From: an uncultured Chlorobiaceae bacterium
GTDB taxonomy: Bacteria; Bacteroidota; Chlorobiia; Chlorobiales; Chlorobiaceae
Length of the DNA: 64,000 bases
Direction: 5' to 3'
Assembly (NCBI GenBank): GCA_903871235.1
Contig: CAIQGA010000159.1
Location: 1 to 64,000 of the forward strand
Positions 5,030-18,070 of the stretch are shown here, piece by piece. Each line of letters starts with the position of its first letter. The first letter of the stretch is position 1. Under the pieces are notes generated by a model, which was given only the letters and a program-made list of their open reading frames with translations, ran no database searches and was not told the origin of the DNA. Both the position numbers and the translations under genes were made by a program.

Positions 5030-5392
5030 TTATACCCCGTCAAGCAGCGCTGTAGCAATCGCTGAATGGCGGTCATGGGCAATAGAGATTTTTATTGTGC
5101 AACCGGAAGGAAAAAGCGCCGCACAAAGAGGGCGAACAAAGGGGCGACCGCGTTCATCATTGAGTATCTCAAAGCTCTTCCAGTGTACACCTTCGGAAAA
5201 GCCTGTGCCGAGTGCCTTGACGACCGCCTCTTTGGCTGCAAACCTGCCGGCAATACTGGCGACCACCTGTGACTTTTGCAGGCAGATTGCGATCTCCTCT
5301 TCTGTCAGAACGCGCTGGAGAAACTTCACCCCGTAGCAGTTGTAGAGCCTTTCAATCCGGTCAAGATCGACAATATCGACTCCAATCTCCAT
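5030..5392 (-). CDS. acpS: Holo-[acyl-carrier-protein] synthase
   Basis: This 120-aa protein transfers 4'-phosphopantetheine from CoA to acyl carrier protein in the cytoplasm, activating fatty-acid synthesis. The family motifs are present: MEIGVDIVDLDRIE at the N-terminus with the metal-binding Asp, and RFAAKEAVVKALGTG near residues 50-65 with the metal-binding Glu. Length is normal for AcpS. It lies 14 bp downstream of nadC on the same strand, so the two are probably co-transcribed. The C-terminus SIAHDRHSAIATALL is the expected last strand. Confidence 0.93.
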   Translation of the reverse strand: MEIGVDIVDLDRIERLYNCYGVKFLQRVLTEEEIAICLQKSQVVASIAGRFAAKEAVVKALGTGFSEGVHWKSFEILNDERGRPFVRPLCAALFPSGCTIKISIAHDRHSAIATALLDGV

Positions 5393-5406
5393 GTTGTTTT
5401 TCCCGT

Positions 5407-6294
5407 TCAGGCAAGTGCTATGGTCATTGAAAGATCAAGCGCCTTGACGCTGTGCGTCAGCTCTCCGATTGAGATAAAGTCAACGCCGGTTTCGGCAACT
5501 TCCGCTACATTGTGCATGCCGATATTGCCGGAAGCTTCAAGGATAGCCGCACTCTGGCCACTTCGGACAAAAGCGACAGCCTCCTTCAACAGTTCAAGAG
5601 TAAAATTGTCGAGAAGAATAATATCCGGCTGGCAAACAAGAGCCTGCTGCAACTCTTTCATTGAACGTACCTCGACTTCAATTTTCACCTCAAGCTTTTG
5701 CTCTTCGCGATACCTCTGCGCCCGATGAATGGCCTTGGCGACGCCTCCGGATGCGTCAATATGATTATCCTTTATGAGAATCATGTCGAAGAGACCGAAA
5801 CGGTGATTGGTCCCTCCGCCAATCCTGACAGCCTCCTTGTCGAAATAACGAAGCCCCGGAACGGTTTTTCGGGTATCAAGAATTTTTGTGCCGGTGTGGC
5901 TTATTTTGTCAACATAACTTCTCGTTCTTGTCGCAATTCCCGACATACGCTGCAGAAAATTAAGTGTAGTACGTTCACCTATCAGGAGCGGAGCAAGTTT
6001 TCCCGTCACTTCAAGAAGGGTTTGACCACAAAAAACTTTTTCGCCGTCAAGACAATGCAGCACAACAGAGAGGTTATGGTCACAGGCGGCAAAAACCTGA
6101 CGGGCAACTTCTGCCCCGCCGAGGATACCATCCTCCTTTGCCCTGACGACGGCACTGCCCCCCTGACGGGGATCAATGGTAGCAAGGGTGGTAATATCAC
6201 CCGTGTAACGATCCTCCTCGAGCGCGAGCATAATGGCCCTTGCACGACACCCTTCATAAAAATCATTACAATCCCTGTTTTTCATGATTGCCAT
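5407..6294 (-). CDS. nadC: Nicotinate-nucleotide pyrophosphorylase (quinolinate phosphoribosyltransferase)
   Basis: This 295-aa enzyme converts quinolinate and PRPP to nicotinate mononucleotide in NAD synthesis. Visible landmarks are the open N-terminal domain (EEDRYTGDITTLATIDP), the core LNFLQRMSGIATRT, KILDTRKTVPGLRYFDKEAV with the catalytic Lys/Arg cluster, RIGGGTNHRFGLFDMILIKDNH, and the C-terminal barrel strands ending ISIGELTHSVKALDLSM. It is complete and of usual length. It heads a two-gene unit with acpS. The start follows a short intergenic region of about 280 bp shared with the divergent YopX-like gene. Confidence 0.95.
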   Translation of the reverse strand: MAIMKNRDCNDFYEGCRARAIMLALEEDRYTGDITTLATIDPRQGGSAVVRAKEDGILGGAEVARQVFAACDHNLSVVLHCLDGEKVFCGQTLLEVTGKLAPLLIGERTTLNFLQRMSGIATRTRSYVDKISHTGTKILDTRKTVPGLRYFDKEAVRIGGGTNHRFGLFDMILIKDNHIDASGGVAKAIHRAQRYREEQKLEVKIEVEVRSMKELQQALVCQPDIILLDNFTLELLKEAVAFVRSGQSAAILEASGNIGMHNVAEVAETGVDFISIGELTHSVKALDLSMTIALA

Positions 6295-6575
6295 TCTTCA
6301 ATACATTGAAAAAAAATCACTCTATAACCCTCAAGGTAGTGAATTCGCCAATACCCTTGTATAAAAAAATCAACCCGTTGGCACAACGAAACCCTGAAAC
6401 AACCATGACTGCTCATTGGCAAACAGCAAACCCTCTTGAGGATGTAATAAAATGGCATGTTGTAGAAGGAGAGAGAGAATTGTTTATATTAGGCGAAGCG
6501 ATGGGGGCAGGTGTCGCCTTATAATGATCTCGAAGCACTGCCCGGTTTCGGGGATTTTTTTTGTCAGAAACACTC

Positions 6576-6914
6576 ATGGATACCAACAAAATAAAATTTA
6601 AAGCGTTATTTCAGGACGTTGCATCACTTCAGGATATCTGGAAGTCCTCTACAGTCAATAACCGGGATGTCGATTTTCTAAAGTTCAGGCAGCGCTCTGA
6701 ATGGCTGCAGTTTACCGGACTCAATGACAAGGATGGTCATGAAATTTACGAAGGCGATCTGCTGAAATGGGAGGGCCTGATTGTTGAAGTTGTTTTTGAA
6801 TCCGGAAGTTTTAAAGTGCTCAATGACGGCAGCTCCGACATGCTCTTGTGGTTTTGTTTGCCCGAATGCAAGATTGTCGGCAACAAATACGAAAAGAAAA
6901 GGGTCAAACCCTGA
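6576..6914 (+). CDS. YopX-like domain protein
   Basis: This protein of about 112 residues contains [20 protein letters not shown], the core of the YopX fold (usually QYTGLKDKNGKEIYEGDI). YopX-type proteins are mostly found in phages and prophages; their function is unknown. An upstream alternative start at 6561 adds five residues; I prefer the ATG at 6576 (MDTNKIKF). No other phage genes are nearby, so it is an isolated cargo gene or a domesticated one. Upstream, 6295-6575 contains no gene I can support. Confidence 0.6.
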
Positions 6915-6979
6915 ACAAAAGTCACGGTATACTTGCCCGAAAGTCAATTCCCGACGATTTTATTCACCCCAAGACTCTT

Positions 6980-7357
6980 ATGACACACTGCGTCCACTCA
7001 TGCGTCCGGCTGGTCAACATGGTTTTTTATGCACATCACGGAGTACTCAAGGAAGAGCATACCGTTGGCGGGAAGTATGAAGTTGATGCGGAGCTCTTTT
7101 TTGACTTTACCGATGCCGCAGAAAATGATGACATCACAAAAACTATCGATTACGGTGCAGTGTACAAAAAGATAGAGAAGGCACTGACCCTCCGGAAATA
7201 CTTTCTCATTGAGGCCGTCGCCTGTGAGATCACTCGTGAGCTCCTCCGTGACTTTACGGTTCTTGAGGGTGTGACCATCAGGGTACGCAAACGCAACCCA
7301 CCAGTCAACGGCATTTGCGATTATGCCGAAGCTGATTACACTGCTACCCGCAATTGA
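6980..7357 (+). CDS. folB: Dihydroneopterin aldolase
   Basis: This protein of about 125 residues cleaves dihydroneopterin to 6-hydroxymethyl-dihydropterin in folate synthesis. The N-terminal motif [19 protein letters not shown] and the later [12 protein letters not shown] and catalytic-region [11 protein letters not shown] are characteristic. The frame opens further upstream (6848), but the family normally begins a few residues before the first strand, so I chose the ATG at 6980 (MTHCVHSC). It overlaps the reading frame of folK by a few bases, which indicates an operon. Confidence 0.9.
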
Positions 7358-7362
7358 GAGTC

Positions 7363-7890
7363 ATGGAAAAACACAACGTCTTTATCGGAATAGGATCAAA
7401 TATCGGAGATCGTATCAACTACCTGCAGGAGGCTGTTGACCAACTTTCGCTGCTTGGTGACACAACGGTATTGGCGGTATCGTCAATCTATATGACTGAA
7501 CCGATCGGAGAGAGTGAACAAAACCGCTTCTATAACGGCGTTCTTCAGCTTGAGACGTCACTTCCACCCGAAGAGTTGCGCCGGCAATGCAAAACCATTG
7601 AACAGGAGCTTGGAAGGCCGGACACCTATCTCCGCTGGAGCCCGAGGGTTATTGATCTCGACATTCTGCTCTATGACGATGCGATTATCCAGACCGAAAC
7701 GCTCTCAATTCCTCACCCGGAACTGCACTGCCGCAAATTCGTCCTTATTCCCTTGCTCGACATTGCCAACCCACAGCACCCCTCACTGCGGCACACCATT
7801 TTGCAACTTCTGAAGTGCTGCAATGACCAATCGGTGCTTATCAAAACAAGGGAATCAATCAGGATAAAAAAAAACGGAGCACCTCCTTAA
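7363..7890 (+). CDS. folK: 2-amino-4-hydroxy-6-hydroxymethyldihydropteridine pyrophosphokinase
   Basis: This 175-aa protein transfers pyrophosphate from ATP to 6-hydroxymethyl-dihydropterin, the step after FolB. The sequence has the opening FIGIGSNIGDR, then SSIYMTEPIGESEQNRFYN, and the signature RWSPRVIDLDILLYDD with the metal-binding Asp pair, followed by PHPELHCRKFVLIPL. Length is normal. A TTG at 7354 would give an extension overlapping folB; the ATG at 7363 (MEKHNVFIG) fits the family better. Confidence 0.95.
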   Translation: MEKHNVFIGIGSNIGDRINYLQEAVDQLSLLGDTTVLAVSSIYMTEPIGESEQNRFYNGVLQLETSLPPEELRRQCKTIEQELGRPDTYLRWSPRVIDLDILLYDDAIIQTETLSIPHPELHCRKFVLIPLLDIANPQHPSLRHTILQLLKCCNDQSVLIKTRESIRIKKNGAPP

Positions 7891-7933: not shown

Positions 7934-9088
7934 TCAGTTGGCAAAGGTGATATTCAGGTTTCCTTCAGCAAAGTCGGCCCCTTCGGTTTTGCGGCCAACA
8001 AGGACATTGGGCAAAATAATGCTTTTGCGGAAGTTATTGATATCAACCAGCAATTCATCACCCTTGATATTGACATTGAGTTTCTTTACCTCAACGTTCG
8101 GCAGGTAGAGACTCAGCACATATTTTCCGTTTATTTTCTCAAGCATCTGGGTTTTATCATCCGTGTAGAGGATATCCGCTGGATTGACTTCGCCAAACAT
8201 CTCCTGGCTCAAATGATAGAGACGCTCAATATTGATGATTTCTGCCGTTGACTGTTTTACCCTGAAAATCGGCACCGGATAAAAGCAATTTTCAATCACC
8301 CTGAGATATTTCGTCTGGATATCAATAAGGCTCTGGAGGTAACTGTCAGTTGAGCTTGCAGGAAGAATCTTGTTGACAATGGCAGCATCAAGCTTGTAAC
8401 CAAAAAGATTAAGGTAGGTTTGAACGCGCAAAGCCTCCTTGATGACCATATTTTCAGGGTTAAGGACAACGCGGAAGGTGGTTATGGATTTATCCTGAAG
8501 CATGGCATGAAGCTCTTTCATGTGCGAATTCACCTCCGGCATAAGCTTGAAGATATTTTTCTTTGGCATGAACTTGCTCAAAAGCGGAGCGGCAAAACCA
8601 ATGGCCTTTGAATGCCATCCACCAATTTTATCGGCATACCATCCGTACGATTCGGGCATTCCGAGCAAGCGCATGGTCTCACCGGTCGGAGCTGCATCAA
8701 CAACAACCACATCATAATCGCCTGACTTGGCCGCTTTCCAGATGTAACGCAAGCTGATCATCTCTTCCATACCCGGCATGATGGCAAGCTCTTCAGCTAC
8801 AACCTCATTGGCGCCGTCATGCATTAAAATCGATGAAAAATAGGAATACAGTTCACCCCAGTTCTCCCTTATTTCAGCCAGAACATTCACCTCCATGGCA
8901 AAAAGATTCTTTTCAACCTCCACCGGCGTCGAAGAGAGCTCGGTGCTCAAAGCATCGGCAAGACTGTGCGCCACATCAGTACTCATGATCAAAACCCGCT
9001 GTCCCCTTCGGGCTATTGCGGTTGCTGATGAAGCTGAAACGGTAGTCTTTCCTACCCCTCCTTTACCCAAGTAAAGAATAATTCTCAT
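7934..9088 (-). CDS. ArsA/Get3-type ATPase with C-terminal HSP20-like domain (second copy)
   Basis: This 384-aa protein has the deviant Walker A motif GKGGVGKTT at residues 8-16, the switch I motif [12 protein letters not shown] (STDPAH in the family) and switch [20 protein letters not shown] (usually DTAPTGHTLR). After residue 300 the ATPase core gives way to a small beta-rich domain ([20 protein letters not shown], then GDELLVDI), matching the HSP20-like tail of Chlorobi ArsA proteins. Classical ArsA is two ATPase halves; this is a single half, as in Get3, which dimerises and delivers hydrophobic tail-anchored proteins. No arsenic gene is nearby. It is the last gene of the csm locus, 70 bp after the 471-aa unknown gene. 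A role in chlorosome protein handling is inferred, not shown. Confidence 0.88.
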
Positions 9089-9158
9089 GGTGATAATAAA
9101 ACTATTGAGTGAACTTAATCTTGACTGAACGCTTTTTATCGATGAGCTGCTCCCTCGG

Positions 9159-10574
9159 TTACCCTGGCTCCTTGTCGGTCAGGCGAGCACTGTCAGGAGC
9201 GCCCTCTTCGTCACCAGGAGAGTCATCCAGACTCATCATATTTTTCACAATTGATGGAATCTCACCATCATGAGATGTAATGGTAATCGTTTTGCGCTTG
9301 GGAACTCCATCACCTTCAAGGCCGTCCTCTTTCACTCCTGATTCCACAGATGGCTCTGCGCCCCCCTCTGCAGATTCGTTTGAAGAGAGAGCACTGCTGA
9401 AACAATCGTCATTGGGCGTTACATCGTCATCGCTTTTGATCTGAATACTCTTTCTTCTGAAATGACGGTCAGTATCGTCATCTTCATCGTGCGATTGACC
9501 GGGAGGTTGATCATGCAGCAATTCATCATCCAATCCTGTCGTATCCACTTTTGGCGAAGGGCGTGGTGCCTTTTTCTTTGAGCTTTCGCTAAAGCTTGAT
9601 GAGAGGCGCAAAAGCTTACTAACAGAGCCAATCATCCCGTCATTTTTGACGGCTGTCTTAACAATATTGATGACAAAACGTTCTGCTTGAGGATTGTCGG
9701 CTATGCTGTTGAGCAATTCATTAAGCGCTGTAAGCATACCGGGAACATGCTGTAAATCACTTTTAACCTGATCACGAATCTTGAACGGGGTATCACCAAT
9801 AATCTCCTTGAGAGAACCGGTAAATTTTTTAATTGACGCCGGATCGGTAGGAAGCAGACTCTCAATTCCCCTGATAAAATCAGCCGGAGAAAACCCTTCC
9901 GAACCCTCTGCCGGGCCCTGCGCTCCCCCGGGCATAGCTCCACCCTGCTGTGCACCCCTGTCATCCGGAGGGTAACCAATGGAAGCCTTGTATTGCTCAA
10001 GAAGATCCTGACCATAACCGATATGACTCTCCCGAGGAGCAGAATCTGAAGCATCAAAGCGAAGAGAGATGGCCCGAGGCAAACAGACGCTTCTTGCGCC
10101 CCGCAAAATAAGATGAGAAACTTCATCAGGAATATCGCTCCGGTAATTAAGACCAAGGCGCTCCTCGATGACCGATTCAATAACCGTATGAAGCCTGGTA
10201 ATAAGCTCGGCTTCCCTCAGCTCAACCATATCAAAAATAACATAGACAGGGTCCTTCTCCTCGCGGCGAACCTTAAAATTAAGCGTCGCAAAATCGTGAT
10301 CCTTGTTCCGGCTGCTCACCGTAACGGAACCAAGATTAAACCGGTCGAGATAATCTTTATTCGATCCCCTCGCCCAGAAGTAAACCGCCTTGTCGGTGTA
10401 GATCAGATAATCCTGAAAGGCAATATTACCAACGCGCTCCTGATGTGATTCGTAAAAAACCCCTTCAAAAAATGCAACAGGATTTTCACCGGCATTCATG
10501 AGCCCCTTCTGAAAAAACTCAGCGACATCACCCTGCTCAGTCTGCGCCGAAACATACAACGATAAATTAGCCAT
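9159..10574 (-). CDS. Conserved protein of unknown function with PH-like N-domain and acidic C-terminal tail
   Basis: I do not recognise a named family for this 471-aa protein. Residues about 30-140 ([16 protein letters not shown], then [20 protein letters not shown]) look like a bacterial PH-like domain of the YokE sort. Residues 190-235 are rich in Gly, Gln and Pro ([18 protein letters not shown]). Residues 235-340 form helices ([12 protein letters not shown], then [20 protein letters not shown]). The tail from 345 is highly charged and acidic ([11 protein letters not shown]) with two short similar strands, [11 protein letters not shown] and [11 protein letters not shown]. No signal peptide or membrane segment is visible. 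It sits between csmA and an ArsA-like ATPase and is probably part of the same regulon. Function unknown. Confidence 0.75.
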
Positions 10575-10694
10575 TACCCATACCCGTTCACTTGATACTG
10601 ATTAGCACGCCGAACCTAAATTTATGAAAATTTTATAATAAAGAGAAATCACCCGACAAAACAGGGAGCGACCCAAGGGCATGAAAACAAAAAA

Positions 10695-10724
10695 GGCAGT
10701 GAAAGCTTTAACGTTTTCACTGCC
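10695..10724 (-). terminator. Terminator of the csmC-csmA transcript
   Basis: A 10-bp perfect stem, GGCAGTGAAA with TTTCACTGCC, has a 10-nt loop and six T on the minus strand. It lies 30 bp after csmA, so the abundant csmCA message probably ends here and the 471-aa gene (start 10574) needs its own promoter or read-through. Confidence 0.85.
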
Positions 10725-10753
10725 TGAGAAAAGAGCATGATTCTCTACTCTAC

Positions 10754-11008
10754 TTACTCTGCGAACTTTGACTCTACTGCCTTGGAAGGAACGGCATAGC
10801 CAGAAAGCTCAGGTGACGAACCGCGAAGGCTTGAGCCGACACTGCCACCAATGTTTCCGTAAGCGTTGCGATTGATTCTCATGGTACCTTTGCCCAAAGA
10901 ATCAAACAACAGACCAACAGTCTCCCAATGCCCCTCAACCATCACTTCAAAAATGCGACCGGCTGCAGAAAGGATATCGGTAAATACGCCTCCACCACTT
11001 ACACTCAT
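10754..11008 (-). CDS. csmA: Chlorosome envelope protein A (baseplate bacteriochlorophyll a protein)
   Basis: This 84-aa precursor forms the paracrystalline baseplate of the chlorosome and binds bacteriochlorophyll a. The diagnostic sequence is [20 protein letters not shown] followed by [20 protein letters not shown]; the single His in GHWE is the presumed pigment ligand. In the family the precursor is cut near [16 protein letters not shown], and the tail ([20 protein letters not shown]) matches the removed peptide. The ATG has a strong Shine-Dalgarno (AAGGGGG, 4 nt spacer). It follows csmC by 141 bp and precedes a strong terminator. Confidence 0.97.
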
Positions 11009-11149
11009 AATTCCCCCTTGGAATTTAATTATTGGAAAGTTATCAGAATTTACAACAGTATTCTTTGTTCTAATTTACGGTAATAAAAAACAAAAACAAG
11101 GAAAAAATCCTTCCGGACAGAGCCAACCCCTGCCAAACGGTCAGTTCTC

Positions 11150-11569
11150 CTATCTTTTTACCGGGCCTTTCTGGAAAGAACCAGCAAAATTTTTGACAAC
11201 TTCGGAAGCGGAAACCCCTGCATCACCAACAGCCGTAGCAGCATTCCCTGTTGCATTTTCAACGGTTTCAACTGCACTGACATAGAGTTCACTGGCAGTT
11301 CTTGATGCATCCTTGACGGTAATGGCAACGCGGTCAAGAGTCTCGCCAACAACGCCACTGGTACTGCCAAGCAGATTGCCAATGCCCGAAGCATCAACAA
11401 CAGCACCAACCGTACCGACGACCGTGTCCAAAAGATTACCGGCAAGATTCAAACTGCCGACAACAGCACTCTGACCAGTTAAAAGCACACTTTCAGCAAG
11501 GAACGTAAGGCGATCAATAAATTCAAGCTCCTTAAAATCTTTACGCAAATTCTGATACGATTCCGACAT
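11150..11569 (-). CDS. csmC: Chlorosome envelope protein C
   Basis: This 139-aa protein begins [20 protein letters not shown]. The middle is hydrophobic and repetitive in Val, Gly and Ala ([20 protein letters not shown], then [20 protein letters not shown]), and the C-terminus ([19 protein letters not shown] in part) is Ala/Val rich. These features and its place directly upstream of csmA identify CsmC, a component of the chlorosome envelope. The frame starts 10 codons earlier at 11599, but the ATG at 11569 has GGAGAG 5 nt upstream and is the better start. csmC and csmA are probably one transcript. Confidence 0.9.
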
Positions 11570-11699
11570 AGCACTCTCCATGGAAATGAGGCTGCCCAAA
11601 CGGGGCCCCGGTTATTATGATTGAACTCACAAAAAATTACTTTGGGCAAAGCTAAACATAAATATTGATCTAAACAAATACTCTTCAAGGGGAAGAAAT

Positions 11700-12926
11700 T
11701 TATCCCCGGTCGTAAGCTTTCTGCTCCTTTTGCTGCCGGCTTTGCTCCTGGCGATTAAGGTCGAAAGGAATGTGCAGCCATTTATCTTTGAAGACAGCAT
11801 CTCCCGGCTCAAGCCCCGTCAGGCTGATCGGAAGCGTGATGATCTTGCGCTGATTGCCAATCTGGACAAACAGCTCATCACCGGTTACCCATACATCGAT
11901 ATCAACAGGGTTTGCAAACATAAGCTTCAACTGCACCTCATAGACATCACCGTTGCGGACAAACTTTATCGGCGGCTCGTCATACATCATGTCGGAGGGA
12001 TCGCTGTCGCCGTACATATCTTTGGCAAACAACTCAAGTGACTTGAGACCAACAATTTCCTGCTCGTACATCCTCAGCTTTTTGACCGGAAGAGGAGAAA
12101 AACCCTCTTCGATCTCTCCAAGGTACTTCTGCTGAATCGCTTTCCAATTCTCCAGATAACCACTGTCCTCTTTTGTATCAAGCAGCTTGTTAACCAGCAC
12201 CATATCCACCTTGAAGCCGTAAAGGTTCAGATAGGTCAAGGCGCGCATGGTCTCCTTGATCGACATTTTTTCAGCATTCATGACCAGACGCACCGTCGAC
12301 TTCTGATTATCCGTCAAAATCTCGCGAATATCTTCAAGCTCGTCGAAAACCTGGTCAACCGACTCAACAGCATCAGCCGGAGGAATAAAAAATGCGATTT
12401 TATCGGACATTCTTGAAAGAGGCTTGCTGAGCGGCTTAATCAAATATTTATTGACATTTTTGATCGCCTTCATACCCCAGGCAAGGGTATCCGGAAGTGA
12501 CAGGAGCCTGAGGGTTTCACCCGTCGGGGCCGTATCGAGCACCAGAACATCGTAGAGTCCGGAAGCTTTATAACGCTTTACCCTCAAAAGGGAGAAAAGC
12601 TCTTCCATACCGGGCAGGATAGTCATTTCATCGGCCATGACCCCCGAAATCCCCTGGGCCATAAAAACCTTTGTGTAGTATTTCTGCACAGCATGCCAGT
12701 TCTGCTTCAAATCAACATAGGGATTGACCTCAATAGCATCAAGATTCTCCCTGATTTTGGTCGGTTCGGCGCCAAGAGGGAGGTTGAACGAATCCGAAAG
12801 GCTGTGAGCGGGATCGGTTGAAAGGACAAGTGTACGATAACCAAGTTGTGACAAGCGAACTGCTGTAGCCGCAGAGACACTGGTTTTGCCTACCCCGCCT
12901 TTTCCTGTAAAAGTTAAAATACGCAT
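11700..12926 (-). CDS. ArsA/Get3-type ATPase with C-terminal HSP20-like domain (first copy)
   Basis: This protein of 408 residues opens [20 protein letters not shown] (deviant Walker A), followed by VLSTDPAHSLSDSFNLPLGA and VLDTAPTGETLRLLSLPDTL. These are closer to canonical Get3/ArsA switches than those of the second copy at 7934. Two CxxC cysteines of eukaryotic Get3 are absent. From about residue 320 there is an HSP20-like beta domain (YEVQLKLMFANPVDIDVWVT) and a charged tail (RQEQSRQQKEQKAYDRG). It is the first gene of the minus-strand csm locus, 130 bp before csmC. I chose the ATG at 12926 because upstream codons to 12983 lack family similarity. Target clients are unknown; proximity suggests the Csm proteins. 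Confidence 0.88.
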   Translation of the reverse strand: MRILTFTGKGGVGKTSVSAATAVRLSQLGYRTLVLSTDPAHSLSDSFNLPLGAEPTKIRENLDAIEVNPYVDLKQNWHAVQKYYTKVFMAQGISGVMADEMTILPGMEELFSLLRVKRYKASGLYDVLVLDTAPTGETLRLLSLPDTLAWGMKAIKNVNKYLIKPLSKPLSRMSDKIAFFIPPADAVESVDQVFDELEDIREILTDNQKSTVRLVMNAEKMSIKETMRALTYLNLYGFKVDMVLVNKLLDTKEDSGYLENWKAIQQKYLGEIEEGFSPLPVKKLRMYEQEIVGLKSLELFAKDMYGDSDPSDMMYDEPPIKFVRNGDVYEVQLKLMFANPVDIDVWVTGDELFVQIGNQRKIITLPISLTGLEPGDAVFKDKWLHIPFDLNRQEQSRQQKEQKAYDRG

Positions 12927-13136
12927 GAACCGGACATTGGTTTTATGGACGCTGAGGGAAAAGTCAGAAATCAGAAAAAGCAAAAGATATCACTCTGAGC
13001 TGACACTACAAAAGATTCAACAGAGACAGTTCTTGCAAGGTTAAAAATTTTAAGTTTTTTATCTCACACAAGGAGCTTGCAAATGAGCCTTTTGCTCACT
13101 TAATTGAACACAAGTCCAATAACGATTATCACCCTC

Positions 13137-13931
13137 ATGCCTGAAATAAACTCCATCGTCGATATCCGGGCAACCGTCATCCAGACCAGCCCTGTCAGCA
13201 GCACGGTCAGCATCATCACCCTCGATTGCCCGGCAATTGCCGCTGCGGCAAAGCCTGGAAACTTTGTCAACGTCAAGGTCAGCGACACAACACTTCCACT
13301 GCTCCGTCGGCCATTTTCGATACACGATGTGCGGGGAACGTTTATCGACATCATGGTCAAATCAATCGGGCCCGGCACCTCACTTTTCTGCGACAAGCCG
13401 TCAGGCTCAACCGTCATGGTGCTCGGTCCGCTCGGAAATTGCTTCGATAGTGCAGGAAAGGAGTTTGACACCGCCATTCTTCTCTCTGGAGGAATCGGCA
13501 CCGCCCCCATGCTCTTTCTTGAAAAAACGCTTGCCGCAAAAGGCAAAAAGGTCATAAACCTGATTGGAGGCCAGTCAAAAGAGGATCTGCTCGCCGGGGA
13601 ACTTTCAAACTGCCGGTTTGCAACCGATGACGGCTCCACAGGGTTCAGGGGCAACGTCGTAGAGCTGCTTGGGAGCGAGTTGGCTGCTCTCGAAAAAGAG
13701 GGACGTATCAAAGTTTTTGCGTGCGGACCAAATGCCATGCTGAAAGCTGTTGCTAAATTCTGCCGTGAACAACAACTTGCATGTGAAGTTTCACTGGAAT
13801 CGGTGATGGGCTGCGGCATCGGAATCTGCTATGGCTGCAGCGTTGAAGTCAACAGCCCGGATGGAGGGCTCCGTACCATTCTGCTCTGCCGCGAAGGCCC
13901 TGTCATTGACGCGGAACTTCTTGCAGTATAA
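13137..13931 (+). CDS. pyrK: Dihydroorotate dehydrogenase electron-transfer subunit (PyrK-type flavoprotein)
   Basis: This protein of about 264 residues passes electrons between NAD and the dihydroorotate dehydrogenase catalytic subunit. It has the ferredoxin-reductase FAD fold (LLRRPFSIHDVRG with the RPFS flavin motif, residues about 60-75), the nucleotide part (ILLSGGIGTAPMLFLEKTLA), and four cysteines for a [2Fe-2S] cluster in GCGIGICYGCSVEV and ILLCREGPV near the C-terminus. No pyrD lies next to it here, which is unusual because the two are often adjacent. The frame opens at 13104 with a non-ATG codon; ATG 13137 (MPEINSIVDIRA) is my choice. Confidence 0.88.
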   Translation: MPEINSIVDIRATVIQTSPVSSTVSIITLDCPAIAAAAKPGNFVNVKVSDTTLPLLRRPFSIHDVRGTFIDIMVKSIGPGTSLFCDKPSGSTVMVLGPLGNCFDSAGKEFDTAILLSGGIGTAPMLFLEKTLAAKGKKVINLIGGQSKEDLLAGELSNCRFATDDGSTGFRGNVVELLGSELAALEKEGRIKVFACGPNAMLKAVAKFCREQQLACEVSLESVMGCGIGICYGCSVEVNSPDGGLRTILLCREGPVIDAELLAV

Positions 13932-14006
13932 AAGAGATAATTTTATCTTGGTAACGTAGAGGGAACGATATTTTCGAAAACTTTTTTCAACAAACCTCCA
14001 AATACC

Positions 14007-14480
14007 ATGGCAAAAGGACTGAACAAGGTAATGCTGATCGGCCACCTCGGCAACGATCCTGAATCAAAAGTCACAACTTCCGGCCAGTCGAGAGTCAATT
14101 TTACTCTGGCTACAACCGAAAATTTCAAGGACAGCGACGGCAACTGGCAAGAAAAACCTGAATGGCACAGGATCATCGTCTGGGGAAAACTTGCCGAAAT
14201 TTGCAGCCAGTACCTGAAAAAGGGAAAACAGGTCTACGTTGAGGGGAAACTGCAAACAAGAAGTTGGGACGATACCAAGAGCGGCGAAAAGAGGTACATC
14301 ACTGAAATTGTCTGTTCCGACATGCAGATGCTCGGTGGTCAAGGTCAAGGGCATAATGAAGGCAGCCCGCAGGCCAGCATACCTCAACGGGAATATCAGC
14401 CGGACTCCGCTTCGTCATCACTTTCCGCTCCACCTTCGGGAGCCCTGCTTGAAAATGACAAGGACGACTTGCCGTTCTGA
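14007..14480 (+). CDS. ssb: Single-stranded DNA-binding protein
   Basis: This 157-aa protein coats single-stranded DNA during replication and repair. The OB fold occupies residues 1-110 ([55 protein letters not shown]). A Ser/Pro-rich linker follows, and the conserved acidic tip DKDDLPF, which recruits partner proteins, closes the protein. It is complete. An 18-bp inverted repeat lies between it and holA. Confidence 0.96.
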
Positions 14481-14487
14481 TAGTGGT

Positions 14488-14534
14488 CAGTAATCAGTTA
14501 TCAGTGGGCAGTAATTACTGATAACTGATTACTG
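14488..14534. repeat. Perfect 18-bp inverted repeat between ssb and holA
   Basis: The arms CAGTAATCAGTTATCAGT (14488-14505) and ACTGATAACTGATTACTG (14517-14534) are exact reverse complements, loop 11 nt. Two further partial copies of ACTGATTACT follow up to about 14568, so the whole 90-bp gap is built from one short word. There is no T-run typical of a terminator. It could be a mobile palindromic (REP/MITE-like) element or an RNA-processing hairpin. Confidence 0.8.
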
Positions 14535-14572
14535 ACAACTGATTACTGACAACTTACTGATTACTATCAACA

Positions 14573-15613
14573 ATGGATGCTCTGAAAAAAAATATTTTTG
14601 CTGGAACCATTGCTCCGGTTTACCTCTTTTACGGCCCCGAAAGCTACCTCAAGGAGGAGTTTGCTGGCATGATCCGAACGGCGATTTTTCCATCCGAAAG
14701 CGATGCGGCATGCAACACCCATATTTTGTATGGCCCCGATCTCACGCCGGGCGAACTGGTATCAAAAGCCTCTGAATATCCAATGTTCACCCCGAAACAA
14801 CTCATCATTGTCCGGCAATTCGAAAAAATCAAGAAGCCCCCAACAAAAGAGCTGCAAAAACAGCATGAAGAGAAATTCAGTCGCTACATCCAGAGTCCGG
14901 CAGAATTTACCGTCCTGCTGCTCGACTCAGACCAGATTGATAAAAAAGAGATTGAAAAACCGCCCTTCAGCACGCTGAAAAAATACCGCCACGATTTTGC
15001 GGCCATCAAAACTCCAGAGCTTTTCGCTTCCGCCAGGGCCAAGGGTTCCGGATGGACATTTGAACCTGATGCCCTCAAAGCCTTTACCGCCTATATCGAA
15101 CCATCAGCAAGGGAGATCTGCCATGAAATTGAAAAAATCATCTTGTACGCTTCTGCACGAGGTGCAGAAAAACGCATCACGGCAACTGACGTCCTCGACT
15201 GCGTCGGTATATCGCGCAGCTACAACGTCTTTGAACTCGAAAAAGCGCTTGCCGAGCGGAGCCTGCGACTCTGCAGCGGCATATCGCTCATGATCATGGA
15301 GCGTGAAGGGCAAAAAGAGGGCCTCGGCAACATTGTCCGCTTTTTGACCACCTTTTATATCCGCCTCTGGAAACTCTCGCTGCCCGAGGTCAGGCAACTT
15401 CCCCAGGCAGAAATCGCCAAAATCCTCGGCATGTACGGCAAGCAGGAGTACTTCGTCAAAAACTACCTCACCTACACACGCTCATTTTCACTCCGTGATG
15501 CCGAGCGCGCCATCGCCGCACTGAGGGAGACTGATGCCGCACTCAAAGGGCTGCTCCCCTACCCGGACGAAAAATATCTCCTCCTGCGACTCATGCAGAA
15601 ACTTCTCGGATAA
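14573..15613 (+). CDS. holA: DNA polymerase III delta subunit
   Basis: This 346-aa protein is the clamp-loader wrench that opens the sliding clamp. The opening [20 protein letters not shown], then YLKEEF, matches domain I of the family, followed by [13 protein letters not shown] and the domain III core [20 protein letters not shown] and [18 protein letters not shown] at the end. The degenerate P-loop expected for delta is present as YGPESY. It is complete and starts 92 bp after ssb, separated by the repetitive hairpin. Confidence 0.9.
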
Positions 15614-15626
15614 ACAAGTAATAAGC

Positions 15627-16619
15627 TCAGAGCCACCCTTGCTGCCGATACCAGGCAATTGTTTTTGCAACGCCTTCGGCAAGTGTGGTTCCAGCCCTGA
15701 AACCAAAATCAATTTCAGCCTGTCTGGGTGAACAGACCCAATAATCCTGCACGAGCTCATTGGCCTTGTCTCTATTAATGAGCGCAGGCACACCCCGTAA
15801 TGAACCGGCTGCGCCAATGAGCGTCGCTACAAAAAAAAGAAGCGGCTTAGGTAGTGAAAGCTTATGGATTTTTGTAAACCCAAGCACCGGCTGAGCAGCA
15901 GCAATCAGCTCATCCCATGACGAAGAACGAGGAGATGTAATATAATAAATGCCTCCTGCAGCAGCCTCCGAGCGGGCAGCCATCATCATGCCATCAACAA
16001 GATCATCAACATAGATCATGCTGAAGCGTTGCCTGGCCTGACTGCCCGCCGAAAGCAGCACTCCTTTGGCAAACATCTGAAAAACCTGTAACACATCCCG
16101 GTCACCCGGCCCGTAGACTGCGGGAGGACGAACAATGGTAACCGGAATATCGGCAGCAAACTCCATGCAAAGCGCTTCAGCCCGCAACTTGCTGCGCCCG
16201 TAGGCGCTCACAGGAGCGGGAGTATCACGCTCATTTACCCCGACAATACCCTCCAAAGCCGGACCCGCAACCGTCAGAGAGGAAACAAAAAGAAAGCGCT
16301 TGAGACTCGAGTTATGCTCCCTCACGGCCTCCAGCAGATTCTTCAATGGCATCACATTGCCAGCATCATAGCCCGCCTCGTCAAACGCTTTCGTTACCCC
16401 TGCGAGATGCACAATGCGATCAACCCCACGCACCGCACGGCCAAGAGCCTCCCTGTCACCAAAACTTCCACGAACAACCTCTACCCCTTCCGCCACAGCA
16501 CCGCCAAGGCTCTCAGGGCGAAGAAAAACCCTTACCCTCTCTCCCTCTCGAGCAAGATGACGCAACACCTGCGCACCAATAAAACCACTCGAACCCGTCA
16601 CCAATATTATTTCACTCAT
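15627..16619 (-). CDS. NAD-dependent epimerase/dehydratase family reductase
   Basis: This 330-aa extended short-chain dehydrogenase has the N-terminal Rossmann motif ILVTGSSGFIGAQVLRHLAR, the active-site Ser in LFVSSLTVAGP and the YGRSK tyrosine-lysine pair. The domain after residue 180 (YGPGDRDVLQVFQMFAKGVL, then FSMIYVDDLVDGMM) is of the dihydroflavonol-reductase / steroid-dehydrogenase type. The ATG at 16619 has AGAGG upstream; an in-frame extension to 16661 is unlikely. It is divergent from the serine-palmitoyltransferase-like gene, with 248 bp between. In Caulobacter and relatives a protein of this type (CerR) reduces 3-keto-ceramide, so a sphingolipid role is plausible; sugar-nucleotide epimerisation is the alternative. 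Confidence 0.8.
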   Translation of the reverse strand: MSEIILVTGSSGFIGAQVLRHLAREGERVRVFLRPESLGGAVAEGVEVVRGSFGDREALGRAVRGVDRIVHLAGVTKAFDEAGYDAGNVMPLKNLLEAVREHNSSLKRFLFVSSLTVAGPALEGIVGVNERDTPAPVSAYGRSKLRAEALCMEFAADIPVTIVRPPAVYGPGDRDVLQVFQMFAKGVLLSAGSQARQRFSMIYVDDLVDGMMMAARSEAAAGGIYYITSPRSSSWDELIAAAQPVLGFTKIHKLSLPKPLLFFVATLIGAAGSLRGVPALINRDKANELVQDYWVCSPRQAEIDFGFRAGTTLAEGVAKTIAWYRQQGWL

Positions 16620-16867
16620 ATCGCCTCTTAACCCTTTTATTAATGTCATTAACGCCGCCATTTACTCTGCTTGATTTTTCTTCAGCAAAAAAAAAGCCGA
16701 GCCTGCTTTAACAAAAAACTAAAATTTTTGATACATTTCCTTTTCTGGGCAAAATGCGCTTACCCTGAAAACCGGTCACCGAAAAAAAAGAAAAACAAAA
16801 ACAGACGACCGTAAACACAAGAAATTCCGGCTTTTTTTTGTTACTGCTGAAATAAATTTGCATTACT

Positions 16868-18070
16868 GTGGAGAAAACCAAAGACCTCTTTAAAAAGTGT
16901 ATAGAGTATACCATTGCTGACGAAGTCAAGGAGCAGGGATTATACCCATTTTTTCACCCAATAGACGAAAACGAAGGCCCGGTCGTCTCTTTTGGTGGAC
17001 GGAAACTCGTTATGGCTGGCTCGAACAACTATCTCGGCCTGACCGCCGACCCGAGAGTAAAAGCTGCCTCAATCAACGCCATTAATAAATACGGCACCAG
17101 TTGCAGCGGATCGCGCTACATGACCGGCACAGTCAACCTCCACGTCGAGCTTGAAGAGAAGCTTGCTGATTTTTTTGAAAAAGAGCGCTGTCTGCTCTTC
17201 AGCACTGGCTACCAGACCGGACAGGGTATCATCCCGACACTGGTGCAGCGCGGCGAATACATTGTCTCCGACCGCGACAACCACGCAAGCCTTGTGGCAG
17301 CAACCGTCATGGCGCTCGGAGCAGGAGCCAACCTGGCACGCTACAACCACAACAACATGGAAGATTTGGAGCGCGTGCTTCAAACCATCCCCGAGTCGGC
17401 TGGCCGTCTCATCGTCTCTGATGGAGTATTTTCCGTCTCCGGTGAAATTGTTGACCTTCCGACCCTGGTAAAACTGGCCAAAAAATATAATGCCCGCATT
17501 CTCATTGACGATGCCCACGCAGTCGGTGTGATAGGCAGGACAGGCAGAGGCACACCCTCGGAGTTTGGCCTTGTCAACGAAGTTGACCTCATCATGGGCA
17601 CCTTCTCGAAAACCTTTGGTTCACTCGGTGGCTATGTTGTGGGCGATCGCACCGTCATCAACTTTATCAAACACAACGCCCCGGCTCTTATTTTCAGCGC
17701 TTCGCCTACACCGGCAAGTGTCGCCGCCGTGCTCGCCACCCTGGAGATTATCCGCACCGAGCCCGAACTCATGGAGCGGCTCATCGCCAATACCGATTAC
17801 GTTCGCCAGGCACTGCTCAAAGCAGGATTTACCCTCATGCCATCCCGCACGGCCATTGTTACCGTCCTGATCAGCGACCAGATGAAGACCCTCCACTTCT
17901 GGAAAAAACTCTTCGATGCCGGTGTCTACGTCAACGCCTTCATCCGTCCCGGTGTTATGCCAGGCCACGAAGCACTTCGCACCAGTTTCATGGCAACCCA
18001 CCAGCAAGTCCATCTCGACAAGGTTATCACCGAATTCTGCACCATCGGCAGAGAACTTGGCGTTATCTGA
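16868..18070 (+). CDS. Serine palmitoyltransferase-like alpha-oxoamine synthase
   Basis: This 400-aa PLP enzyme condenses an amino acid with an acyl-CoA. Motifs: the glycine-rich [68 protein letters not shown] and the PLP-lysine [17 protein letters not shown]. The family also contains BioF (8-amino-7-oxononanoate synthase) and Kbl; the GTFSK lysine loop and the N-terminal extension (about 50 residues before the core) favour serine palmitoyltransferase, the first step of sphingolipid synthesis. The start is a GTG at 16868 (MEKTKDLFK). The neighbouring divergent reductase supports a sphingoid-lipid function. Biochemical substrate is not proven here. Confidence 0.78.

Follow-up and report, generated by a model that had tools for sequence, protein, structure and literature searches.

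Organization of the csmA locus

Few known light-harvesting antennae are as large or as efficient as chlorosomes, and a 64,000-nucleotide stretch of the genome of an uncultured Chlorobiaceae bacterium (contig C159 of genome G000, hereafter the window) carries two chlorosome protein genes within a cassette of five. Between positions 7934 and 12926 these genes, all on the minus strand, are transcribed in the order ATPase1 (11700..12926, 408 residues), csmC (11150..11581), csmA (10754..11008), ORF471 (9159..10574) and ATPase2 (7934..9088, 384 residues). csmC encodes chlorosome envelope protein C (PF11098, E 4.1e-59), an ATG at 11581 or 11569 being a likelier start than the TTG at 11599, and csmA encodes the 84-residue precursor of the chlorosome baseplate protein (PF02043, E 6.8e-35). 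ATPase1 combines a single-half Get3/ArsA ATPase with a C-terminal alpha-crystallin domain, the Get3d architecture, and ATPase2 is a second ATPase of this type; ORF471 is predicted to consist of a PH-like N-terminal domain, a helical middle and an acidic disordered tail. The original prediction for this locus had placed csmC and csmA on one strand between two single-half ArsA-type ATPases with HSP20-like tails, with which both the Pfam matches and the coordinates agree, and had listed a 471-residue protein to which it assigned no function, for which we obtained no Pfam or NCBIfam match at E ≤ 0.01.

On one side the cassette is bordered by acpS, nadC, folB and folK (5030-7890 scanned, about 3 kb), and on the other by genes for a PyrK-like oxidoreductase, ssb, holA, an epimerase and an aminotransferase (13104-18070 scanned, about 5 kb). 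Arsenic genes (ArsB/Acr3, ArsR, ArsC) were absent from both sets of scanned neighbours, as had been predicted.

A hairpin followed by a run of T residues lies 3' of csmA on the minus strand (10694..10725), and its folding (-23.1 kcal/mol over a 77-nucleotide stretch, z -3.35) marks it as a likely intrinsic terminator. Because the hairpin looks like a strong terminator, ORF471 and ATPase2 probably form a separate transcription unit, and the cassette probably comprises at least two such units. A simple promoter and terminator scan returned no more sites than were found in shuffled sequences and missed this hairpin; a scan for tandem repeats found none.

Conservation of the cassette across Chlorobia

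The comparison of gene order that accompanied the original prediction as a proposal was carried out on 98 Chlorobia genomes from four families (f1-f4). A CsmA-family gene was present in 96 of them and an ATPase1 ortholog (E ≤ 1e-130) in 92, with identities of 63-72% in the three other families. When the ATPase1 regions of the window and 91 other genomes were mapped by profile and BLAST, the complete one-strand order ATPase1-csmC-csmA-ORF471-ATPase2 was recovered in 79 of the 98 genomes, belonging to families f1, f2 and f4, and the sole f3 genome (G088) retained the first four genes before its contig ended. Contig ends broke the order in nine genomes, G088 included (the others being G008, G017, G018, G033, G063, G072, G077 and G096), and four (G031, G046, G050, G081) yielded only another copy of ATPase1. 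The six genomes with no ATPase1 match comprise three with csmE-type genes only (G039, G049, G057), one in which a csmA fragment adjoins ORF471 at a contig end (G071), and two in which a CsmA-family gene was not found either (G083, G093).

Each Chlorobia genome gave up to five CsmA-family matches, from which we read those near ATPase1 and 35 others. Every csmA-type sequence read falls in the cassette or in a cut piece of it, and all 35 members read outside it are of the csmE type, as is the other CsmA-family member of the window genome (contig C208). At one contig end (L156, G031:C179) an ATPase1 copy has a csmE-type gene immediately upstream, which may represent a second pairing of a csm gene with an ATPase.

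The csmA core in Chloroflexota

Scanning contigs with a Chloroflexus CsmA query gave 27 named Chloroflexota loci, and all 27 have an ATPase1-like gene, 48-51% identical to that of the window, immediately upstream of csmA and on its strand. ORF471-related genes, usually two, follow csmA in 26, the remaining contig ending first, and two more Get3-type genes come after these in 24, the other three loci being cut by contig ends.

Co-occurrence was scored in 150 sampled Chloroflexia genomes, a set that shares species with the 27 named loci, with matches of 424 bits or more taken as ATPase1 orthologs (the next-ranked match scored 343 bits). csmA was present in 33 genomes and an ATPase1 ortholog (48-53% identity) in 34, namely all 33 with csmA and G463, whose 3-kb contig ends at ATPase1; no genome had csmA only, and 116 had neither. 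In each of the 33, csmA lies 101-532 bases downstream of ATPase1 between matched ends, and the ORF471 family was found in exactly these genomes. Another 34 genomes carry only a Get3d of 36-43% identity (E ≤ 1e-60) and no csmA. The corresponding Fisher p values, 2e-32 and 6e-34, ignore kinship and are descriptive only. The original prediction would have fallen had the ATPases been equally common where chlorosomes are lacking; in Chloroflexia this is not the case for ATPase1, csmA accompanying 33 of 34 orthologs.

Two genomes, G327 and G336, carry the order ATPase1-csmA-ORF471a-ORF471b with a very divergent CsmA (E about 1e-9), and are possibly related to Chlorohelix.

In a phylum sample of 296 genomes, 85 matched ATPase1 at E ≤ 1e-40, 10 of them outside the class; the six of these that were fetched are 37-42% identical. 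Alpha-crystallin tails were also seen on Get3 proteins outside csmA bearers, in Bacteroidota outside the class (L206 and L207, both scanned) and in Nonomuraea and Fusobacterium (L212, L213). Since tailed Get3 proteins occur in these organisms, the tail alone is no marker of photosynthesis; the ATPase1 ortholog, unlike the tail alone, tracks csmA.

Given the complete order in 79 of 98 Chlorobia genomes and the recurrence of the core in Chloroflexota, the cassette is more than a chance arrangement. Regional synteny as its sole cause was rejected, since only some lineages have flanking genes in common: family f1 alone for PyrK, and f1 together with G087 for folK and folB. Four Chloroflexus loci (L076, L077, L079, L080) have a distant match to FolB some 6 kb upstream; beyond f1, G087 and these four, no PyrK, folK or folB was found at the other loci mapped.

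ATPase1 and ATPase2 are Get3d-type proteins

In both ATPases a single-half PF02374 domain (E 1.2e-115 in ATPase1, 3.7e-82 in ATPase2) is followed by the C-terminal alpha-crystallin domain PF17886 (ArsA_HSP20; E 2.3e-20 and 3.2e-19), with all matches above cut-off. Alignment showed the P-loop, switch I and switch II to be intact in ATPase1; the deviant Walker A motif GKGGxGKT is present in both proteins (TGKGGVGKT and LGKGGVGKT), and the CxxC zinc motif is absent from all 51 aligned rows. Structures were predicted as single chains and, of the two ATPases, for ATPase1 only. Its model (mean predicted local distance difference test score, pLDDT, 88) matched archaeal TRC40 (3ZQ6) at top rank over the ATPase core, and its full-length matches are the Get3d proteins of Nostoc (8egk_A, E 1.4e-23, 401 columns) and Arabidopsis (8elf_A, E 1.7e-21, 414 columns). 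Neither ATPase reached the cut-off of the NosAFP equivalog NF050088 (145.3 and 145.8 bits against 325). The PF02374 domain is also common to ArsA, but the window proteins are single-half, with one PF02374 stretch each, lack the arsenite-binding cysteines of ArsA (there are no cysteines in ATPase1 and one in ATPase2), and have no ars genes among their scanned neighbours.

Get3d is a published family that binds tail-anchored proteins and is tied to photosynthetic organisms; binding has been reported in vitro for the Nostoc and Arabidopsis members, and Get3d with intact switch regions was noted in green sulfur bacteria (accessible parts of PMC10248533). The statement of the original prediction that it knew of no published function for these ATPases thus holds only in part: the family is described, but the word "chlorosome" is absent from the main text of that paper. 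The window ATPases resemble NosGet3d (8EGK/3IGF) and AtGet3d (8ELF) in the single-half ATPase with alpha-crystallin domain, the missing CxxC, the deviant Walker A motif and, for ATPase1, the full-length fold. However, whereas switch I and the A-loop are described as degenerate in Get3d of Nostoc and plants (accessible parts of PMC10248533), ATPase1 has intact catalytic motifs and is a member of a csmA-linked group. With the Get3/TRC40 proteins of the eukaryotic and archaeal guided entry of tail-anchored proteins (GET) pathway (3ZQ6, 4XWO) ATPase1 shares the ATPase core and fold, at about 28-34% identity to archaeal and yeast chains, but it lacks CxxC, carries the extra alpha-crystallin domain, and the client proposed below is amphipathic rather than tail-anchored.

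Evolution of the ATPase positions

The window genome encodes six single-half Get3/ArsA genes, ATPase1 and ATPase2 included, and phylogeny was inferred from 41 Get3d rows. An earlier quick tree had long branches, and six rows were dropped (two ArsA halves, a gas-vesicle Get3, L119, L212 and L213); of the six outside-class loci, L208, L209 and L211 never entered any tree, the P-loop not having been located. The 19 ATPase1 rows, second copies included, group with the paralogs C111 and C152 of the window genome (support 94/98), and a single clade for all ATPase1 rows was not rejected by the approximately unbiased (AU) test (p 0.36), although C111 and C152 fall inside or beside it. Chlorobia ATPase2 falls together with unlinked Get3d of Chloroflexia (100/98), and the second csm-linked ATPase of Chloroflexota, on a long branch, with C60 of the window genome (100/100). 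A single clade uniting all csm-linked ATPase2 as old orthologs was rejected (AU p 1.5e-40), and because of this the ATPase2 position must have been taken by a different Get3d lineage in each phylum: the trees indicate that a second Get3d joined csmA twice, separately in Chlorobia and Chloroflexota. The third Get3-like gene of Chloroflexota (ATPase3; e.g., L078:8424-9524) has lost the P-loop, switch I and switch II in nine of nine rows and, given the loss of these nucleotide-binding motifs, is probably a non-catalytic partner, that is, a pseudo-ATPase.

Elsewhere in the window genome (L042, G000:C203:11000-25729) a tail-less Get3/ArsA ATPase of 321 residues (9516-10478) lies inside a gas-vesicle cluster. 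Its neighbours are an Hsp20-like protein that stands alone and falls slightly short of the NCBIfam cut-off, together with a CDC48 ATPase, a GvpA-type protein, GvpG and a fusion of GvpL/F with DnaJ. Here the pairing of Get3 with alpha-crystallin is split over two genes, at another organelle.

ORF471 and the CsmA tail

In the predicted structure of ORF471 the N-terminal domain (about residues 1-142) has the seven strands capped by a C-terminal helix of the PH fold, with Z up to 10.7 to PH and PH-like domains and 9.9 to 3B77, a bacterial PH domain; block-mean pLDDT is 87-98 over residues 1-170, except for 76 at 41-50. bPH_3 is weakly matched by 11 of 77 ORF471 family members (best E 0.009), the window protein not among them. 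ORF471 thus shares its predicted fold with bacterial PH domains, but it adds a conserved helical middle, modelled with lower confidence, and the acidic disordered tail, and it matches no family model. R[KR]x[IV]x[IV] motifs recur in this tail, with 2-4 copies in 8 of 11 Chlorobia rows and one in the other three (shuffle means ≤ 0.09); eight Chloroflexota rows of the family have none or one.

Mature CsmA is presumably made by removal of a C-terminal tail. The codons for the last nine residues of pre-CsmA (10757..10783, minus strand) encode the motif K-x-[IV]-x-x-[KR]-F found in the alignment of lineage consensus sequences, where K and F belong to the small number of columns without variation. 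More loosely, [IVLA]xx[KR]F occurs within the last residues of 149 of 150 rows of the CsmA family, 130 of the 150 being distinct. These rows cover Chlorobia, Chloroflexales and both Chlorohelix-like genomes and include csmE-type members; the one row without the motif comes from a gene truncated at a contig end. Given that a tail destined to be discarded is conserved over such a distance, its end is probably read by something, and ORF471, the ATPases and the processing protease are candidate readers. In the divergent CsmA of G327 (G327:C1:361779-362006) and G336 (G336:C35:15667-15903) the GHW motif reads GWW, with loss of the histidine usually regarded as the bacteriochlorophyll a ligand, and the tail motif is kept even there.

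A proposed dedicated chlorosome pathway

Co-occurrence and gene order in two phyla lend strong support to a dedicated chlorosome function of ATPase1 and ORF471, and the finding of csmA beside the same Get3-type ATPase and a new partner in both points to an unstudied machine for building chlorosomes. Three observations argue for a pathway dedicated to chlorosome proteins, namely that ATPase1 lies beside csmA wherever the contig allows, that a second Get3d was recruited separately in the two phyla, and that ORF471 was found only with csmA in the sample. We consider the chances about even that the locus is a conserved chlorosome-biogenesis cassette encoding a Get3d chaperone or delivery system with CsmA as its likeliest client, the client and the mechanism being inferred. 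Of the delivery or insertion system originally predicted, the dedicated role stands for ATPase1 and ORF471, and delivery or insertion of CsmA by the ATPases is no more than plausible.

In such a system ATPase1, as an ATP-switched dimer, would hold newly made CsmA by its amphipathic helix, with CsmE probably a further client, as would be CsmC in Chlorobia, and would pass CsmA on, at the cytoplasmic membrane, to the chlorosome envelope as this grows. ORF471, which combines a PH-like domain with a long tail, could serve as an adaptor or as a tether to envelope or membrane. ATPase2, together in Chloroflexota with the P-loop-less ATPase3, would be a second chaperone or a regulatory partner, and the C-terminal motif of pre-CsmA may be a recognition tag that is removed after delivery. 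A more specific version is rather doubtful: a GET-like pathway to a lipid-monolayer organelle, in which ORF471 recognises the K-x-[IV]-x-x-[KR]-F tag of pre-CsmA and CsmE through its PH/PTB-like domain and hands the protein over to the ATPase1 dimer, itself under the control of the second Get3d (partly catalytically dead in Chloroflexota), before the tag is cut on the chlorosome. If it were true, ATPase1, CsmA and ORF471 would be the ancestral chlorosome core, which would either predate the divergence of Chlorobia and Chloroflexota or have moved between the phyla as one block.

Several points weigh against a dedicated delivery system for CsmA. CsmA is a peripheral amphipathic protein and not a tail-anchored one, its most hydrophobic 18-residue segment having a mean Kyte-Doolittle value of 1.26 in the window and 0.34 in a Chloroflexus CsmA. 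The insert of ATPase1 (41-51% hydrophobic residues across 18 rows) is similar to that of its paralogs and no more hydrophobic, and this comparison with the paralogs did not discriminate. Close ATPase1 paralogs (C111 and C152, 46-47% identical) adjoin unrelated genes, and G327 and G336 have no adjacent ATPase2. The published lists of chlorosome proteins, in their accessible parts, do not include these ATPases, although a transient soluble factor need not appear there. Because the co-occurrence comes from a few deep lineages, its p values overstate independence. Finally, a second copy of ATPase1 that adjoins bchU in 16 of 22 loci points to pigment as much as to protein.

This second copy, 81-92% identical, occurs in many Chlorobiaceae. 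Among the 22 second-copy loci, counted without L156, the 16 have bchU, the gene for a bacteriochlorophyll methyltransferase, as one of the next two genes and, in most cases, a gene for a B12-binding radical SAM protein as well (L147, L152, L162, L219, L220, L222-L231, L233); bchU was identified by TIGR02716 at L147 (477 bits) and elsewhere by BLAST at 40% identity or more. Of the remainder, three show the radical SAM gene and then a contig end (L167, L215, L221), two have neither gene (L172, L175) and one is cut off (L232). At L224 and L228 more than one ATPase1 copy lies around bchU.

Because the second copy adjoins bchU, the chlorosome link of the ATPase1 group extends to pigment and may indicate a pigment-related role. 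The main rival to protein delivery is that the Get3d ATPases serve the chlorosome with a cargo other than CsmA: at the membrane they would carry or order bacteriochlorophyll c or its late intermediates, or else lipids or a pigment enzyme, the adjacency to csmA reflecting a joint need. CsmA itself binds bacteriochlorophyll a, which fits this proposal. On the other hand, the csmA-linked copy is the widespread one and bchU-linked copies were found only in Chlorobiaceae, and the known Get3-fold members carry proteins or oxyanions, not tetrapyrroles; we consider a pigment or lipid cargo unlikely.

It is quite unlikely that the ATPases are general photosynthesis-associated Get3d chaperones that sit in the csmA operon for shared regulation only. 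Get3d does occur in cyanobacteria and plants, which have no chlorosomes (accessible parts of PMC10248533), and chlorosome bacteria have several Get3d paralogs outside csm loci. Co-expression alone, however, sits poorly with the Chloroflexia tally, in which the ATPase1 ortholog follows csmA with a single contig-end exception, and with an order that is kept despite the likely terminator between csmA and ORF471-ATPase2.

A system that positions or segregates chlorosomes, as McdA/ParA does carboxysomes, with ORF471 as disordered cargo adaptor, would account for a deviant Walker A ATPase adjoining an organelle gene and for the long acidic tail of ORF471 with its repeated motifs in Chlorobia. We regard this as improbable, since ATPase1 is clearly a Get3/ArsA protein (PF02374, 386 bits, against 25 bits for the ParA family PF10609) with an alpha-crystallin tail and a Get3 insert, and the tail repeats number at most one in the eight Chloroflexota rows. 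Scarcely credible is the reading of an older annotation, with its six ArsA homologs (Eisen et al. 2002, as cited in the accessible part of PMC11269200), that these are arsenite-pump ATPases unrelated to chlorosomes: the PF02374 family name, "anion-transporting ATPase", is in its favour, but arsenic resistance was rejected on the single-half architecture (TIGR04291 ArsA, whose cut-off is 650 bits, scores 117 and 86), the near absence of cysteines, the scanned neighbours, and a separate two-half ArsA of about 600 residues on contig C144, away from the csm cassette.

Relation to published work and implications

Parts of this locus are already published, namely Get3d with its several copies in green sulfur bacteria (PMC10248533) and the csmC-csmA pair (PMC12214013), both cited here from their accessible parts. 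The csmC-csmA operon of Chlorobium and Chlorobaculum contains the same gene pair, with csmA essential and csmC dispensable (Bryant laboratory, cited in PMC12214013), but the flanking ATPases and ORF471 do not figure in its description in the accessible part of that source. We found no paper joining chlorosome and Get3 in the accessible literature, outside which lie subscription papers that may hold an earlier mention, and, by titles and the beginnings of abstracts, none joining chlorosome with ArsA or arsenite that concerned this locus.

Models of chlorosome assembly by budding and by aggregation compete (accessible part of PMC9316378). Two further families, the Get3d group of ATPase1 and ORF471, share the distribution and neighbourhood of CsmA in Chlorobia, Chloroflexales and a deep Chloroflexia lineage, and because this shared distribution names genes, the question of how chlorosomes are assembled becomes directly testable. 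For Get3d, whose role is unsettled, the cassette provides a concrete physiological setting.

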